From contig MVBO01000021.1 of the NCBI GenBank assembly GCA_002261195.1, forward strand, positions 14,322 through 78,321: a DNA stretch of 64,000 bases. The letters are read 5' to 3'. The translations under genes and the position numbers were made by a program. The first letter of the stretch is position 1. Every line of letters begins with the position of its first letter. The DNA comes from Bifiguratus adelaidae (taxonomy: Eukaryota; Mucoromycota; Endogonomycetes; Endogonales). This document shows positions 1,979-63,898 of the stretch, piece by piece. A model generated the notes under the pieces. It worked only from the letters and a program-made list of their open reading frames with translations. It was not told the DNA's origin and searched no databases.

Positions 1979-2818
1979 GGCTTCGGACAACAATGGAACA
2001 ATTCCTGGCCTGCACCCCTTTATGTATGTGCGTCGATCCGCAGACAGACCCCAGTATGTCTCCTGCACCACCTCGTTCATCTTGTTTTTGTCAAGTACAT
2101 CCTCCGTGCGTCGTGCATCCAATCGTGCACATACATTCAGCAACTACTCTATTGTAGATTGAACCGTTCAGCCAATACGCGATCGAGAAAATCTCCGCAG
2201 CTCATTTAGCAATCCCATTGTTCAAAGTGCACATGTGATGAGCGCGTCAATGTGGTATGTGTGCTGGGCCAAAAAGAGAGATGCAATATGCTTAACGTTT
2301 GCAAAAGCTTATCTTTATATTTTTGGGTTACTGTTCATGGCCATTGGCTGCAGGAGGATTTTGTTTGTTACCTAGATTATGCCACAAATAGAGGTGATAA
2401 GGTTCGCTCTGTTCCTTCATGGAGCGAAAGTTGATTGCCAGAGGCGTCACCGTCGTTGAAATTGTGGCGATGACAAGACATCCATTTTGTGTCCAAAGAG
2501 TTGTCTATCCATACAAGAGTCCCCTGCCGACCGATCTCATTTGCTGGGGGTGCATTGCCAGCTTTACCATTTTGTAGGAGGCACCACTGTCTGGGTCATG
2601 AATGAGCGTACAATGGTGCGTGGACACTGGTAGAGACAAATCCTACGATTTTATATAACACCTAGCGATATCCCTTTTGGAAACAGTTGGACCGTGTTAT
2701 CGAGGACTTTGTAATGCAGCGATTGCGTAGTGATCGGCTCAATGCCAAGATCGGAACAAAAGAGACTTGACTGAGGACCTCGTAAGAGATTCAACTAGAC
2801 AAACTGGTCAGTATTGTT
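1979..2818. other. Intergenic, no gene seen
   Basis: These 840 bases lie between the start of the alpha/beta hydrolase and the stop of ELP6. No frame shows a recognisable protein and no tRNA-like fold was noticed. The left part is presumably the hydrolase promoter and the right part the ELP6 3' untranslated region. Confidence 0.5.
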
Positions 2819-3650
2819 TCAGCCAAGTTTTGGACCATGTACCTCTCCGTGAACATCTCTAGAGGTGCCGCTCTCAAGACCGTGCACATCCAAAATCACC
2901 TCGGCACTTGACATGATTGAATTTGCAAACGCATGTTCTGTTTGATCTTCGGATAACACCTGATCGGCATGCGTCAGGGTAATCAAACTTCCACCGTGCT
3001 AAGATAGGCATGTTAATTTCGTCCCTCGATACATGTCTTGTACATACCAGTGCGACGAGGCTCTTGAGTGTCTGTACAAGATCCACCACATCTCGTGCCG
3101 CCGCTCCCGTCCACACAAGCGAGCTCACATCATCTATCACCACCAGCGGCGGCTTTCCGTACGCATCCACTGTTGTCTGAACATGCTGCCTGATCAAATC
3201 AAACAAACCGCGCACCTCCGGTCGATCCTTGTCGACCGCATCGGCATAGGAATAGACAGAATTGGGCGTATTGACGGATCGGATGGATCCATGAGGAAAG
3301 TCTCGAGAATAAGCATCGAGATGCGTCAAGGCATCAATGAATATCAGTTGACCGTTCTGCTTCGCGGTAGCCAAGTTGACTCCCTATACGATGGATACAT
3401 TAGCCCTCTTCGTCAACTTGACGAGCCTGCTACTTGCCAGCTTTCTCCCCACCAACACATAGTGATTCAAGATTTGGCTCACTCCGACCAAGATCACTGG
3501 CCTCGCTGCCTTGAGTTGATTGACAATAAAGTGATGCAACAACCAGCTGCCGTCTGAACGTAGAGTATCACTAATAGCTACATGAGACCCTGCGTAGGGC
3601 AGTGAGCTTTGACCAAAGACCAAGGCAATGTCAAGCGCAGGGTATCCCAT
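2819..3650 (-). CDS. ELP6: Elongator complex subunit Elp6
   Basis: Elp6 is one of the RecA-fold subunits of the Elp456 ring of Elongator, which modifies wobble uridines of cytosolic tRNAs. Exons are 3650-3438, 3383-3048 and 2998-2819, giving about 242 aa, a normal Elp6 length. Recognisable blocks are 'DGSWLLHHFIVNQLKAA' near the N-terminus, 'GRKL' spliced to 'GVNLATAKQNGQLIFID', 'PPLVVIDDVSSLVW' and a C-terminal 'SGTSRDVHGEV'. No Walker A motif is seen, as is usual for this subunit. Intron 1 (3437-3384, 54 nt) has the donor CTG|GCAAGT, so it is a GC-AG intron; only this junction gives the family sequence in frame. Intron 2 (3047-2999) is GT-AG. The start codon lies 60 bases from the ATG of the divergent amidohydrolase gene, so they probably share a promoter. 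Confidence 0.85.
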
Positions 3651-3710
3651 AAGAATAATCGGCCGATGCTTCGGCCTCTGCCCTTATCTTTCACCTTGCT
3701 CACTTAAGCG

Positions 3711-6700
3711 ATGGAGAAGAGCTTTAGGCAAGACGCGCCTCGTTCCTCGTGGCGCAAGGGTGTGAGTATTGCTTTGGCTGGACTGCTGGCAGGTACACTG
3801 TATCTATCGGCCAACTTGCCGACGACAAGGTTGGGTTTTGAAGGACGCGTAGAACCAGCTCGGGTGAGTATATCCTCCGCTTCCTTCCACGAAGGCCTTT
3901 CCAAATGCTCAGCACTGCGCTCTACGGTGGGGACCAGTGCGGTGAGGACGCGCAACCCTCGAGCGGTCAAGGGCACCAAGCCGGTGCTTATCAAGAATGG
4001 GATCCTGTGGACCGATAACCAGTATATCCATGGAAAGACATTGTTGCTCGACGAGGGCATCATCAAGGAGATCGATGCTGCGGTGGAGGTGGACGCATCG
4101 TCGGTAGATGTCATTGATGCCGCTGGCCGCATCGTGACACCGGGGCTGATCGATATGCATTCCCATATGGGTGTAGGAAGTTGGCCTAGTCTGGAGGCCA
4201 CCGAGGATACGAATGAAATGACCGATCCCCTGACGCCTGCTGTTCGTGTTTTGGATGGTTTCAATCCATCCGATCCAGCCATCAAGATCGTGGCCTCTGG
4301 AGGCATTACGACGACGCTTATCCTGCCTGGATCTGGAAACATTATGGGAGGTGAAGCGACGGCTATCAAGCTTCGTCCGATGCCAAACTTATCAGTGGAG
4401 GATATGCAGGTATCTGCGGGTGTAGTTGACGAGGAAAAGAAGTGGAGATACATGAAGATGGCCTGTGGTGAGAATCCTAAGCGGTTCTATGGCGGTCAAG
4501 GCAAGATACCTTCGACGCGTACGTGGTAGAATACTTTTTATTTGGTTGCGCGATACTCATAGAAATCAATCGTAGGTCTTGGAGAGGCCTATCTCTTTCG
4601 ACAACGCATGCAAAAGGCCCGACAGCTTAAGCGCGCTCAGGAAGCCTGGTGCGAACGTGCGCAACAGCTTCAAGGTCGTCATCAACTGATTGCGGAGCCT
4701 TTCCCAGAAGACATTGATCAAGAGTCATTGATTGCTCTACTGCGAGGCGATGTGCTGCTCAACGTTCACTGCTATGAACCCATGGATATCGAAGCCATGG
4801 TTCGACACAGTGTTGAATTCAATTTCACCATCGCTGCTTTCCATCACGCGTTGCAAGCCCACAAGGTGACGGAGATTATCAAGCGAGGAAGGGGTAACAT
4901 TACGGTAGCGACCTTTGCAGGTGGGTACACATCATGGCTCCTGTTGACATGAATTGACCAATTTCGGTATGCTTGTCATTTAGACATGTGGGGTTACAAG
5001 GTGAGAGGCTACATGGACAGAGTGAACATGACAGGTCGACTCACGACCATCTGCAGAAAGAAGCATTTCCCGCCTCGGTCCATGCTCCCAAGATTTTGAC
5101 GGACGCTGGTATTCCGGTAGCTTTCAAGAGTGACCATGCTGTTTTGAATTCGGTATGGAGAGCAACACACGTCTGAGGTTGTGATACTGACCCTTGTGCC
5201 TTACTGTTCGCAAACTGTACACAGCAAGACCTCGTGTATGAGAGTGCAAAAGCATATCATTATGGTCTCAATGAGCATCTCGCCCTAGCTGCCGTTACGT
5301 CTGTCCCGGCGCACGCAATGGGCATTGCTCATCGCGTTGGAAGACTCGCTGTCGGCATGGACGCCGATGTCGTAATTTGGGAACAACATCCGTTGACGCT
5401 TGGTGCTCGACCCACTGAAGTCATCATCGATGGTGTCCCTCAAGACTTTGGTGAGGAAAGGGCATTGACCGAGATGGCGAGCCAAGAAGCGACGGTTATT
5501 GACCGGGCCAGATTGCCTCCGAACAGCAAGCCGTCGATGGAACTCGAAGATCACGGCCACGGATATACTAATTTCCAAGAGGCATGCCTCCAGCCTACCT
5601 CCTCCTTGGTTCTCCGAAACGTGAGCAAGATCTACCTTGACAAGGATGTCGTGTTGGACAGCGAAGAGGAGCAAGTCGTTATTGTGAAGGATGGATGGCT
5701 CGCTTGCGCTGGTAGCGATTGCGGTAAAGACAAGGCTGATTGGCCAAATAATGCTCCCGTATTCAACCTTCAAGGTGGTCACATTCTGCCTGTAAGTGCC
5801 TCGCTGTTCTGATCTGGAGTTTATCGCGCTTACATGGCCCGTGGTATGTAGGGCCTCGTGTCCACTGGTGCACGATTGGGAATGCTCGAAATCGAGTCTG
5901 AAGAGTCTACATTGGACGGCGTGTCCGAATACGACGTCAATGATCCCAACGTTGACAAGAAATTGGCGCGTGCTATTGATGGCGTCAAAATGGGAGGCCT
6001 TCATCTCGAAAAGGCTTACAAGGCTGGTATGTGTGAGATGTTGGCCATTAACGCTTGAATTGGCCTCATACGGATCCTAGGTGTCTTGACCACCATCACC
6101 AACCCCATCAGTTTCGAGTTCTTTACAGGTATCTCTGCGGCCTTCAAGACGGGAGGACAAAACACGGGTGAGTTCACAAGAGATATTATGCCCGAAAACG
6201 AGCTGCTTACACGTTCTAGTCCTCGATGATGACATTGTTATTGCTGATGAAGCCGCACTGCATCTTGTTCTCGGCAACACCGCCGTGAGTAAGTAGCAGA
6301 CACACTGATGTGTAATGGTTGATGAAACAACTTGCCGCTTCCAGAAAAGAACCTGCCCATATCCCGTCAAGTTGCAACCATTCGCAACCTCCTTACCGAT
6401 GGCCTCAAGAGCACCACCACCACTGTCTTCAAGAATGCTGCCGTTGGCAAATTGCCTATCGTTGTATACACGGAGAACAAGGACGAGATTGCTTCAGTTA
6501 TTCAGATACAACGGCATTTGAGACGTCTGGGAGGCAATCCCAAATTCGTCATCATGGGAGGAATCGAGTCTTGGATGGTTGCCGACCATCTCGCCGACGC
6601 TGATATCCCGGTGATTTTGCGTCCGGCACGATGCACGCCTACACACTTCCATGCCCAGCATTGTCTCGTTGGTCCTCCCATCACGCCTCACACCGCCTTG

Positions 6701-60175: not shown

Positions 60176-61077
60176 AGCGATACAATCGGCACTTAGAACG
60201 CGAATGGTGAGTATGCAGATTGCGACTGGGTGTAACTTGCTACCTACGTAATGCTTATATCCAATGTCCACTAGTATGCATGCTGACAGCCTGTTAAGCG
60301 ACAAGACGTGTTAGTATCCCGCAGCAATGAAGGTTCATGCTTCCACTGCCTCGTGCGCCAGTCAAGCCCACCTTTGCCCTCACATGCCGAGACCGATACA
60401 CTAGGACCATGGGATAACATCGTGCATAGCAGCAGAGTCTGATGCAATCCCTCTATACGTGCATAGGTCGAATGCAACATGCTCATGAACCTATGTAAAT
60501 CATGGTGGCATGCGGCTCAGGACCCGCTTCAACCATCAGAGAGGTCATCCACGCCAACCGGCAGTGAAATACCAGATCAGGATACCTCACACACCGTCCT
60601 CCGATCCATAGAGTAGCACCACACGCCCCCATGACAACCTACCTTGACACTAATCTTTTTGGTGAGCGCAAAAGGCTGGCGACAAACGAGACAACTAATG
60701 GGAGCAAGTCAGTTGTTGCTTGCCATATAGAGGTTCATGACTACCCCAACAGGGAGTGTGAAACGTGTATATGCCTACCTGCTGCTGTTACAAACTTGCC
60801 GACACGTCGAAAAAGCACGAGCAAAAAGTGAGAGAAGCAAGGTTTGCCTTTCATCGTTTTTGACACCTAGCCCTTCGCGGGAGGCCAAGATCACGTGAAC
60901 ATAAATCACGTGATTTATGTTCACGTGATATTAACGTCAGTCCACCCGGAAATCGAGGCCGTGTGGAACGCATTTATTGTCCTTGGGCGCAAGCGCATCC
61001 ACCATTCGGGTCCGGCTGGATGTCCCGGAGGGATGAAAGACTTATATTAGATTGAAAGAATTTTTGCATTCATCTCC
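60176..61077. promoter_or_regulatory. Divergent promoter region, SET gene / MurQ-kinase gene
   Basis: 902 bases with no recognisable gene. The main feature is the 40-bp CACGTG palindrome at 60890-60929. An ORF at 60631-60831 has no family resemblance. A TATA-like TTATATTA lies near 61042, about 35 bases before the fusion gene ATG. Confidence 0.45.
60890..60929. repeat. 40-bp perfect palindrome with three CACGTG E-boxes
   Basis: The 40 bases are identical to their reverse complement, centred on CACGTG at 60907-60912. Flanking CACGTG copies lie at 60892-60897 and 60922-60927, each 15 bases from the centre, all in the context TCACGTGA. The first non-matching pair is outside both ends. It lies 149 bases before the ATG of the MurQ-kinase fusion and about 715 bases before the divergent SET gene. 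CACGTG is the target of bHLH factors such as Cbf1, Pho4 and Ino2/4-type proteins. Three sites at about 1.5 helical turns could bind an array of dimers. It may also extrude as a hairpin. Confidence 0.85.
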
Positions 61078-63243
61078 ATGGATGCCCTGACCGATCCGTC
61101 TATGCTTGCGTCTTTGACGACAGAGCAGCGGAATCCATGGTCGACGCATATTGATACGCTGCCAACCTTGGGGATGCTCGAATTGATCAATGCAGAAGAC
61201 GCTAAAGTAGCCGAGGCGGTGAGAAGAGAGTTGCCGCAGGTAGCGCGCGCTGTGGACGCTATTTCGGAGCGCATGCTTCACCACGGTGGACGACTCATGT
61301 ATATCGGTGCGGGAACGAGTGGTCGATTGGGCATCTTGGATGCATCGGAGTGTCCTCCGACGTACAAGACCACTCCAGATCAAGTGATGGGTTTCATGGC
61401 TGGAGGTGATACTGCTATCCGGAAGGCGGTGGAAGGTGTAGAGGATTCGCTAGAGGCCGGTCGAGCCGATGTCATCTCAAACAATATCACACCTCACGAT
61501 ACCCTGGTCGGTTTGGCAGCTTCCGGAAGAACACCGTATGTGATTGGAGCTATTCGGTATGCCAAGTCGATTGGCGCCTTGACAGTAGGCGTCGCTTGCA
61601 ACAAACAGACACACTTATCCCGCGAGGTCGATATCATGATCGATCCTGTATCAGGTCCCGAGGTGGTGACTGGATCGACGCGGATGAAGGCAGGTACGGC
61701 AACCAAGCTGGTGCTCAATATGCTTAGTACGGGCGCCATGATACGGTACGGCAAGACGTTTGGAAACCTCATGGTAGACTTGCAATGCTCCAATTACAAA
61801 CTTGAACTGCGGGCAGTACGCATTGTACAAATGGCATTGGAGGATGAAATCGTGGTCAAGGAACAGGATGCGGATGGTCGCATACACAAGCGTGTCATGA
61901 CATTGACCAAAGAACGCGCCGAGACATTGTTACTTTCAGAATGCAACGGGGAGGTCAAGACGGCTATCTTAGTGGGCAAGACGGGCATGGATGCAATGAC
62001 CGCTCGACAGTGTCTTTCCGAGGCCAATGGTGTCCTGGCCAAGGCGCTTGATCGATTTCACACTGCCGCAAACGGGCATACCACAGACTCAGAATCAGAA
62101 AACCAACCGCATACCTTCCTCAACGCAGACTCATCATCGAAGCAGGATCAACTCTACCTGTGCATCGATGGTGGAGGCACCAAAACATTTGCCGTCATTG
62201 TTAACGATCTGGGTCAGGAAATTGGTCGAGGTGCCTCAGGGTCGTCGAATTACTCGGTGGTCGGTTTGAAAGCAACGCTAGAAGCCATCCAGACGGCCGT
62301 TGAACACGCCTTGGAAGGCCACCAATCGCAACCTGGTTCACCCGACACTCAAGCGGTTAGCTTTAACGTCCATCATCCCCTCAACGACCAGGAACTAGCT
62401 CAATCACGCCCTCAATTCCCTGCCTTTACCAAAATCTGGGTTGGTCTTGCTGGCTCAGATCGTTCCCTTGATCGATCAGTTCTACTACCGGCCCTATCAA
62501 CCTTCTTCGGACCCGAAACGCCATCACAAAACATTCTCCTCACCAGCGACGCCGATCTGTTGGCCTCTCGCTTCATCACTAGCAAACAAGCTGGCATTGT
62601 TTTGATTGGTGGCACCGGCAGCATCGCGCTCGCTTACGACAGCACCGGGCAGCGCATCCGTCGAGTCGGTGGCTGGGGTTACATTTTGGGCGACGAAGGA
62701 TCAGGCTATGCCCTCGGCCTCGCTGCTTGTCGCCAATTGGCCATGGTCTTGGATGGGCGTAAGCCCCTCAAGAATGGCAAAACACCCATCGTTATGTCAG
62801 ATTTGCCACCCTTCTACCGAGCTATCATGGAAGATCTTGGCTGCGAGAAGCCGGACCATTTCGTGCCATTGATCTATGCACAAGGCCAATCTGATGCTGA
62901 ACGCAAGACCAAACTCGCCAAACTTGCCGAGACCGTCTTAGATGCTGCGGACCGTAACGATGAAGACGCTCAAGCCATCATCCAAGAAGGATCAGTCCAC
63001 CTTGCTGACCTTGTCATTGCTCTCATTCACCAAGAATTCTTATCCACAGACCGATTACCCCTTGTCGTTGCTGGGGGACCCTTGTGCAATCACCTTGCCT
63101 ACCGTCAGATGGTCCTCGATCAAATCCGTTCCCAAATCGGTGATCGCATCTTAGAAGTGGTCGTTGCCGATATCCCTGCGGTCGTTGCTGCCCAAGATTT
63201 GGCTAGCGTTTCCGTCCGTGAACAATACCACATAGACTCATAG
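61078..63243 (+). CDS. Fusion of MurNAc-6-phosphate etherase (MurQ) and BadF/NAGK-type sugar kinase
   Basis: One uninterrupted exon, 721 aa. Residues about 15-335 are MurQ: 'LGMLELINAEDAKVAEAV', the SIS motif 'MYIGAGTSGRLGILDASECPPTY' split around Glu91, and 'KAVEGVEDS' with Glu122. These match the two catalytic Glu of E. coli MurQ (E83 and E114). MurQ cleaves the lactyl ether of N-acetylmuramic acid 6-phosphate to GlcNAc-6-phosphate and D-lactate. After a short linker, residues about 358-715 are a BadF/BadG-type kinase: 'CIDGGGTKTFAVI' (phosphate loop), 'WVGLAGSDRS', 'VLIGGTGSIALAY' and 'GGWGYILGDEGSGYALG'. This family includes GlcNAc kinase and bacterial MurK, which phosphorylates MurNAc and GlcNAc. 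The fusion could do both steps. Animal GKRP is a MurQ relative without etherase activity, so a regulatory role is an alternative. Lack of introns among intron-rich neighbours fits acquisition from bacteria. Confidence 0.93.
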   Translation: MDALTDPSMLASLTTEQRNPWSTHIDTLPTLGMLELINAEDAKVAEAVRRELPQVARAVDAISERMLHHGGRLMYIGAGTSGRLGILDASECPPTYKTTPDQVMGFMAGGDTAIRKAVEGVEDSLEAGRADVISNNITPHDTLVGLAASGRTPYVIGAIRYAKSIGALTVGVACNKQTHLSREVDIMIDPVSGPEVVTGSTRMKAGTATKLVLNMLSTGAMIRYGKTFGNLMVDLQCSNYKLELRAVRIVQMALEDEIVVKEQDADGRIHKRVMTLTKERAETLLLSECNGEVKTAILVGKTGMDAMTARQCLSEANGVLAKALDRFHTAANGHTTDSESENQPHTFLNADSSSKQDQLYLCIDGGGTKTFAVIVNDLGQEIGRGASGSSNYSVVGLKATLEAIQTAVEHALEGHQSQPGSPDTQAVSFNVHHPLNDQELAQSRPQFPAFTKIWVGLAGSDRSLDRSVLLPALSTFFGPETPSQNILLTSDADLLASRFITSKQAGIVLIGGTGSIALAYDSTGQRIRRVGGWGYILGDEGSGYALGLAACRQLAMVLDGRKPLKNGKTPIVMSDLPPFYRAIMEDLGCEKPDHFVPLIYAQGQSDAERKTKLAKLAETVLDAADRNDEDAQAIIQEGSVHLADLVIALIHQEFLSTDRLPLVVAGGPLCNHLAYRQMVLDQIRSQIGDRILEVVVADIPAVVAAQDLASVSVREQYHIDS

Positions 63244-63268: not shown

Positions 63269-63898
63269 TTATATACATCCCCACAATGCCTCGCCTTCTT
63301 TATACCCATTCATTCTCCAGATGTCCCCATACTGCATCACCAATCCATGTCGGTTCACAGCCAGAGTGTAGTCGACACCACGTTCCAATCCCTCATACCG
63401 GAACACGCTCGTTTCGTAATGGTCACTGGTCGATAGGCGCGTATACCGTTGAGGCGATACCGAACAGGTCATGGTGTCCGTATCCACATACAACATCTGA
63501 AAGTCCTGTGCTTGACCCGTGACCCACGCTGTTCGTCGAATAGGTAGCGTATTGGTCATGGGCGTGGCGCGTATATCCAAGTCGATGACATGACCTTGCG
63601 GTACAGCCACTGGTTGGTCGTTGAGGCTCAGTGTCCACCCGTAGCTGCGTTTGACACCTTCAAGAGTGGTCTTGGTGTCGTGGCGTAGGATGCGGAAGGA
63701 CTGGCAGACCCATGCGTGGTCGAGGGCAATGGTATAGTCCACATAGGACTCCCCATGGTGGTGAGCGTCTAGTGGGGAGGTAGAAGGATGACGCGTAATG
63801 TGAGAGGTGACGGTAATGCCTGTGGAGTCAGGCGTAAGGGACACGGTCTCGTAGGTCGATAACCGCACCGACTTCCATGCCACTTGTATAGGCTCCAT
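63269..63898 (-). CDS. Putative glycolipid-binding family protein (PF06475-like)
   Basis: One exon, 209 aa, from ATG at 63898. The order 'VDYTIALDHAWVCQSFRI', 'GWTLSLNDQPV', 'IDLDIRATPMTNTLPIRR', 'DFQMLYVDTDTMTCSVSPQRYTRL' and 'VNRHGLVMQYGDIWR' follows the bacterial and fungal family annotated as putative glycolipid-binding. The 'T.NTLPIRR' and 'QRYTRL' blocks are its best markers. No signal peptide or membrane segment is seen. The biochemical function is unproven even in the family. The gene is tail to tail with the MurQ-kinase fusion, only 25 bases between stops, and both lack introns. The promoter lies in the last 100 bases of the window. Confidence 0.75.
   Translation of the reverse strand: MEPIQVAWKSVRLSTYETVSLTPDSTGITVTSHITRHPSTSPLDAHHHGESYVDYTIALDHAWVCQSFRILRHDTKTTLEGVKRSYGWTLSLNDQPVAVPQGHVIDLDIRATPMTNTLPIRRTAWVTGQAQDFQMLYVDTDTMTCSVSPQRYTRLSTSDHYETSVFRYEGLERGVDYTLAVNRHGLVMQYGDIWRMNGYKEGEALWGCI

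Follow-up and report, generated by a model that had tools for sequence, protein, structure and literature searches.

The two halves of the gene considered here have counterparts that are known as separate proteins. For one half these are MurQ of Haemophilus influenzae (structure 4lzj) and of Yersinia enterocolitica (4s12) and, at far lower match, vertebrate GKRP, which shares the SIS fold and which we take to consist of two SIS domains (a count also given by the present alignment) without an attached kinase. A title cited in PMC7052976 derives GKRP from MurQ. For the other half they are unfused kinases: bacterial MurK of Clostridium acetobutylicum (8zo3), named as a kinase of N-acetylmuramic acid (MurNAc) and N-acetylglucosamine (GlcNAc); human NAGK (2ch5, 2ch6), which according to PMC10465942 acts on muramyl dipeptide too, phosphorylating its MurNAc part; and the hexokinase of Sulfolobus tokodaii (2e2n and others), a broad glucose-type enzyme whose pocket, according to the same paper, would clash with MurNAc. 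In the soil fungus Bifiguratus adelaidae (Mucoromycotina, Endogonales in the taxonomy) both halves lie in one gene on a 64,000-nucleotide stretch of contig MVBO01000021.1, referred to below as the window. We consider it likely, at a probability of about 70%, that the encoded fusion protein is a two-step MurNAc kinase-etherase used in salvage and descends from an old bacterial linked unit. The features of the gene are as follows.

61078..63243, plus strand: fusion gene, with a predicted N-terminal MurNAc-6-phosphate etherase and C-terminal BadF/MurK-type sugar kinase (from the open reading frame, its single copy, families, structures and model)
61099..62061, plus strand: MurQ etherase domain, residues 8-328
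61348..61350, plus strand: codon of Glu91, first predicted catalytic Glu (in DASECPPT), identical in 54/54 alignment rows
61441..61443, plus strand: codon of Glu122, second predicted catalytic Glu (in EGVED), identical in 54/54 rows
61846..61902, plus strand: residues 257-275, an extra stretch of the MurQ part with a beta-hairpin fold in the AlphaFold model (18-row alignment A1)
62077..62139, plus strand: disordered interdomain linker, residues 334-354 (model confidence, pLDDT, below 50)
62149..63225, plus strand: kinase domain, residues 358-716 (PF01869; hexokinase, MurK and NAGK structures)
62167..62184, plus strand: phosphate loop D-G-G-G-T-K, residues 364-369 (alignments)
62548..62550, plus strand: codon of Asp491, the predicted catalytic base, which aligns with human NAGK D107 and corresponds by motif to Tannerella forsythia MurK D95
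62668..62679, plus strand: G-G-W-G, residues 531-534, in the place of MurK S133-P134-L135 and NAGK G145, where those two kinases have space for the lactyl ether (alignment, PMC10465942)

A first-pass annotation, made from the letters alone, had proposed a single-exon fusion of MurQ and a kinase, and the open reading frame (ORF) listing of the window agrees: an uninterrupted frame of 721 amino acids runs from ATG to stop at exactly 61078-63243 on the plus strand. The gene is present once in the 18.6-Mb assembly (self-match 1599.6 bits, 100%). The AlphaFold model has a mean pLDDT of 86.4 and contains two well-formed domains, with residues 334-354 between them disordered.

The MurQ half scored 366.3 bits against the MurQ equivalog model TIGR00274 of NCBIfam, above its curated cut-off of 302, and 393 bits against PRK05441 (cut-off 168). 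It resembles the H. influenzae and Y. enterocolitica enzymes in sequence (46-53% identity), in predicted fold and in both catalytic glutamates, and differs from them and from TIGR00274 members in being fused to a kinase, in being fungal and in carrying the hairpin at 257-275, a place where Umbelopsis and Gongronella have a shorter extra stretch in alignment A1. E91 and E122, presumably the counterparts of the catalytic pair of Escherichia coli MurQ, had already been picked out in the first-pass annotation, and both proved invariant in alignment A2, the 54-row alignment.

The same annotation had described the kinase half as of BadF/NAGK type with an intact phosphate loop. This was confirmed by the Pfam family BcrAD_BadFG (PF01869), which matched residues 363-690 with 97 bits (cut-off 31.5) and, in a profile search, matched nothing else in the genome, and by the loop at 364-369. 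The motifs of MurK/NAGK-type kinases are present (D364, G366, D491, G512-T513-G514 and D539), and D491, at the position whose catalytic role in these kinases is described in PMC10465942, is identical in 54/54 rows. With C. acetobutylicum MurK (24% identity) the half shares the predicted fold, the DGGG[TS]K loop, GGWG..GDEGSGY and the sugar-loop Asp; with human NAGK (19-20% identity) it shares the predicted fold, the catalytic Asp and GGWG. PMC10465942 gives S133-P134-L135 and T94 as the places in T. forsythia MurK that decide whether MurNAc fits. The corresponding residues of the fusion are G531-G532-W533 and S490, none with a bulky charged side chain, as would be needed for MurNAc to fit; in the alignment with NAGK, S490 falls on T106 and G532 on G145 (numbering counted from the alignment).

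In the proposed pathway the fusion protein, probably cytosolic, would act twice. The C-terminal kinase would transfer phosphate from ATP to C6 of MurNAc, and probably also of GlcNAc, and the N-terminal MurQ domain would then convert MurNAc-6-phosphate to D-lactate and GlcNAc-6-phosphate. NagA-like and NagB enzymes would carry GlcNAc-6-phosphate on to fructose-6-phosphate, while upstream a GH25 lysozyme and the exo-muramidase NamZ would free MurNAc from bacterial walls. Salvage of MurNAc is the simplest account, as one protein joins a MurK-like kinase to a conserved MurQ and NamZ is encoded in the same genome.

The other pathway genes were searched for exon by exon in the Bifiguratus genome using profiles, which gave the following NamZ gene.

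2708..4240 of locus L123 on contig C68, minus strand: NamZ exo-beta-N-acetylmuramidase gene with five short introns (profile search)

Splicing by eye at five GT..AG introns of 52-63 bp gave a 416-residue protein with both NamZ domains (PF07075, 235.9 bits; PF20732, 197.4 bits) and a solved relative, 4k05, at 250 bits. Its start is hydrophobic and signal-like by eye, and NamZ is apparently secreted. Among the best 120 of 7416 homologues passing, identities were 52-59%, those named by organism were actinobacterial and none bore a fungal name; in the NamZ tree the protein sits on a long branch whose placement is unsupported. The five introns, together with a neighbouring ORF for a eukaryotic-type kelch/methyltransferase protein (by eye), argue against contamination. 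The occurrence of NamZ in a fungal genome, with its named relatives actinobacterial, stood out as the greatest surprise of the analysis.

A GH25 lysozyme is encoded on contig C206 by one 226-residue ORF (184 bits) with a signal-like start by eye, and it too is apparently secreted; two further partial matches contain stops. NagB scored 363.6 bits on C252 (cut-off 236.9) and rose above the cut-off on C79 once neighbouring pieces were joined, while the pieces on C152 and C236 stayed under it. The NagA model gave 14 matches, strongest on C252, C20 and C60, which we take to be intron-split genes; on C252 roughly 1 kb separates the NagA match from the NagB match. Two matches to the AnmK family PF03702 exceeded the Pfam cut-off (C277, 55285-56205; C223, 3889-5024). 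Against one AnmK model the best of these reached 216 bits, under its cut-off of 367; the same model matched 5 of 14 control genomes, one of them above the cut-off. Fungal members of PF03702 include enzymes with levoglucosan kinase activity (PMC9476349), so that the two genes may encode either anhydro-MurNAc kinases or levoglucosan kinases and, the AnmK cut-off having been missed as well, they were not counted as support.

Several observations weigh against MurNAc salvage, and its weak links are the true substrate of the kinase, the uptake of MurNAc and the removal of stem peptides. No MurNAc transporter was identified, though no search was aimed at one. At the place of MurK T94 the 20 named fungal rows have Asn in 15, Ser in 3 and Pro and Gly in 1 each; Asn at this place is unfavourable for MurNAc according to PMC10465942, and the permissive Ser of Bifiguratus is therefore not general in fungi. 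Where T. forsythia MurK has the non-acidic I69 the fusion has Asp461; S. tokodaii hexokinase has Asp here too, and in that enzyme it is said to repel the lactyl group. As C. acetobutylicum MurK and human NAGK likewise carry Asp at this place in the alignment, we read the non-acidic residue as a trait of T. forsythia MurK and not of the family. Foldseek ranked S. tokodaii hexokinase (E 8e-18) and human NAGK (7e-16) ahead of MurK (1e-15), and by sequence hexokinase and MurK were level (66.5 and 66.2 bits), so similarity leaves the substrate of the kinase unsettled; PMC10465942 itself states that sequence cannot identify MurNAc binding. None of the 14 NagA matches (best 137 bits) reached the cut-off of 225.65 bits. 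The weak link in stem-peptide removal arises because a search for Amidase_2, matched in 6 of 14 control genomes, found nothing in the Bifiguratus genome, although an intron-split gene could escape it. Finally, the pathway genes are not clustered with the fusion, and the searches placed none of them in the window; the only NagA-model match within it (26 bits) is in an amidohydrolase-like ORF near 3711.

The protein might instead be mainly a GlcNAc kinase for chitin and wall turnover, the MurQ part clearing or salvaging, as a side activity, MurNAc-6-phosphate formed from stray MurNAc. The undecided substrate preference leaves room for this, and we regard it as unlikely though worth keeping in mind. 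Trichoderma and Candida use a GlcNAc kinase of the hexokinase family (PMC4950302), and the Bifiguratus genome has hexokinase-family matches on seven contigs, none of them tied to GlcNAc; moreover, the catalytic positions of MurQ are intact in 20/20 named fungal rows, and the genome encodes NamZ, a family named for the release of MurNAc. An assignment of the MurQ half as a GKRP-like regulator, sensing sugar phosphates and controlling the attached or another hexokinase without being an enzyme, could draw on database entries for fungal relatives named 'putative glucokinase regulator family protein' and on a match of 60.5 bits to the Pfam family GKRP_SIS_N. It was rejected as improbable: the half has a single SIS unit, it scored 268-273 bits against MurQ chains and 51-68 against GKRP chains, and it passed the TIGR00274 cut-off.

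Contamination by bacterial DNA, or a relic gene in decay, might be suspected from the lack of introns and the largely bacterial family, but this explanation is so improbable that it was also rejected. The first-pass annotation had taken the host to be a fungus, and the 164-kb contig carries the deposited FMP27 gene of this organism: over residues 1400-2485, a neighbouring ORF, FMP27, matches BZG36_02198 of Bifiguratus adelaidae at 100% identity. The fusion is single-copy, its MurQ domain falls with those of Umbelopsis and Gongronella (99/85), and all catalytic positions examined are intact. Its GC content (0.531; 0.545 at third codon positions) tops the range of five other ORFs in the window (0.468-0.519; 0.485-0.542), yet is close to that range.

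A kinase-etherase in MurNAc salvage thus remains the preferred explanation, and its relatives bear on where it came from. The fusion homologues considered were the best 120 of 4796 passing the E-value limit, the 7999 scored being those sharing most words. Profiles found both domains in 119 of the 120. Going by their names, 28 come from fungi and 4 from bacteria (Gemmataceae or Gemmatales), and the other 88 give no organism; no Bifiguratus protein was found among these 120. The belief expressed in the first-pass annotation that other fungi have similar fusions was therefore correct. Those of Umbelopsis, Aspergillus and metagenome-assembled Gemmataceae genomes match the Bifiguratus fusion in domain order and in motifs along most of the protein, with 37-46% identity in the 54-row alignment, and the fungal and Gemmataceae fusions are already in databases under several names.

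Among 80 listed prokaryote loci none is fused, and in 13 murQ and a kinase ORF are neighbours on one strand; at L068 and L073, also among the 80, the kinase ORF is further off or on the other strand. In 392 genomes of Planctomycetota, the phylum of Botrimarina, 230 gave a match at E <= 1e-30. At least 4 of the matches listed span both domains, one as a single ORF (L125) and the remaining 3 as neighbouring ORFs in one frame with one or two stop codons between them. Plasmid records show this pairing too; in that of Thermomicrobium roseum, for instance, a single match covers murQ and a BadF/BadG protein. At the bacterial loci L002, L003, L126 and L127 the murQ and kinase frames are in frame with a single stop codon between them, one step from a fusion. 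Formation of the fusion in a fungus is disfavoured, since bacterial fusions exist (those with Gemmatales-type names and L125 of Planctomycetota) and adjacent pairs are common.

Separate trees of the two domains with bacterial, fungal and GKRP sequences had been suggested as a check. They were built with bacterial and fungal rows and drawn with a midpoint root, and the fungi group in both; GKRP was compared by match scores instead. Fifteen rows were taken as fungal: Bifiguratus, 11 named fungi and, from their place in a 231-row FastTree tree, 3 unnamed rows (P0010, P0059 and P0116). In the careful MurQ tree, of 78 rows chosen from the 231, all 15 form one branch (85/82) adjoining a mixed group of Chloroflexota, Planctomycetota, Streptomyces and others. 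In a kinase tree reduced to 45 of 50 rows by leaving out five with long branches, 14 fungal rows group at 98/95 and all 15, including Furculomyces, at 88/69; outside fungi, the closest rows come from the fusions P0004 and P0072 and from the adjacent gene pair at L002, and Bifiguratus shows no particular grouping with Umbelopsis and Gongronella. The place of Furculomyces is unstable: it fell with other fungi in these two trees and with Clostridia in the 231-row tree; the first kinase tree placed it beside a clostridial row on a long branch. In that first tree a Lactiplantibacillus row (L003), again on a long branch, stood among the fungi. The placement of Furculomyces in the 231-row tree is the reason for considering that it may have acquired the gene separately, and a MurQ clade of fungi minus Furculomyces was not rejected by the approximately unbiased test (p 0.436). 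Transfers between fungi may also have occurred.

Since both domain trees group the fungi among bacteria that carry the two genes either fused or side by side, the two halves agree in giving moderate support to entry of a linked bacterial kinase-etherase unit into fungi long ago. It would have passed from bacteria into an early fungus and then been inherited in fungi; the trees suggest a single old transfer. The first-pass annotation had argued for transfer from the gene's lack of introns beside neighbours that it took to be mostly intron-rich: the bacterial origin is favoured by the trees, but lack of introns is no evidence for it, and a recent transfer on that ground was rejected. At least two neighbours of the fusion contain long open stretches (2485 and 1476 amino acids).

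Two further features lie near the gene, of which the first is a possible regulatory site.

60887..60932, no strand assigned: near-perfect palindrome of 46 bp, lying 146 bp upstream from the fusion ATG and containing three TCACGTGA octamers at intervals of 15 bp
63269..63898, minus strand: next ORF downstream, Glycolipid_bind protein (PF06475, 103 bits), without known link to the fusion

The window has 4 copies of the octamer where 1.39 are expected, a number reached in 1 of 100 shuffles.

In the literature searched, which covered few subscription papers, the hits listed gave no account of MurNAc use or of a kinase-etherase fusion in a fungus, nor any functional study of the fungal or Gemmataceae fusions. 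A Monascus murQ gene is listed among chitin-pathway genes (PMC9159588). In free-living protists a MurNAc-6-phosphate etherase has been reported and linked to digestion of bacterial walls (PMC7052976), and MurNAc use has been inferred for a rumen ciliate (PMC6925433). A 2026 paper on ants describes murQ transfer as previously unreported and potentially unique to Camponotini (PMC13320244), a statement that conflicts with the bacterial-type murQ in fungi.

What is new here is that the genome holds enzymes on both sides of the fusion, NamZ and GH25 before it and NagB and NagA-like proteins after it. MurNAc in soils is commonly used as a bacterial marker. We give even odds to the wider proposal that some fungi carry out full salvage of peptidoglycan amino sugars, with bacterial walls as a source of carbon and nitrogen, and that NamZ of Bifiguratus was a second bacterial acquisition, after the older fusion. 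If MurNAc salvage is real, labels such as 'glucokinase regulator' on the fungal fusion genes mislead; bacterial walls, whether from free-living cells or from bacteria within hyphae, would serve as food, and fungi would join the organisms that degrade bacterial wall residues, by means of an enzyme that consumes MurNAc.
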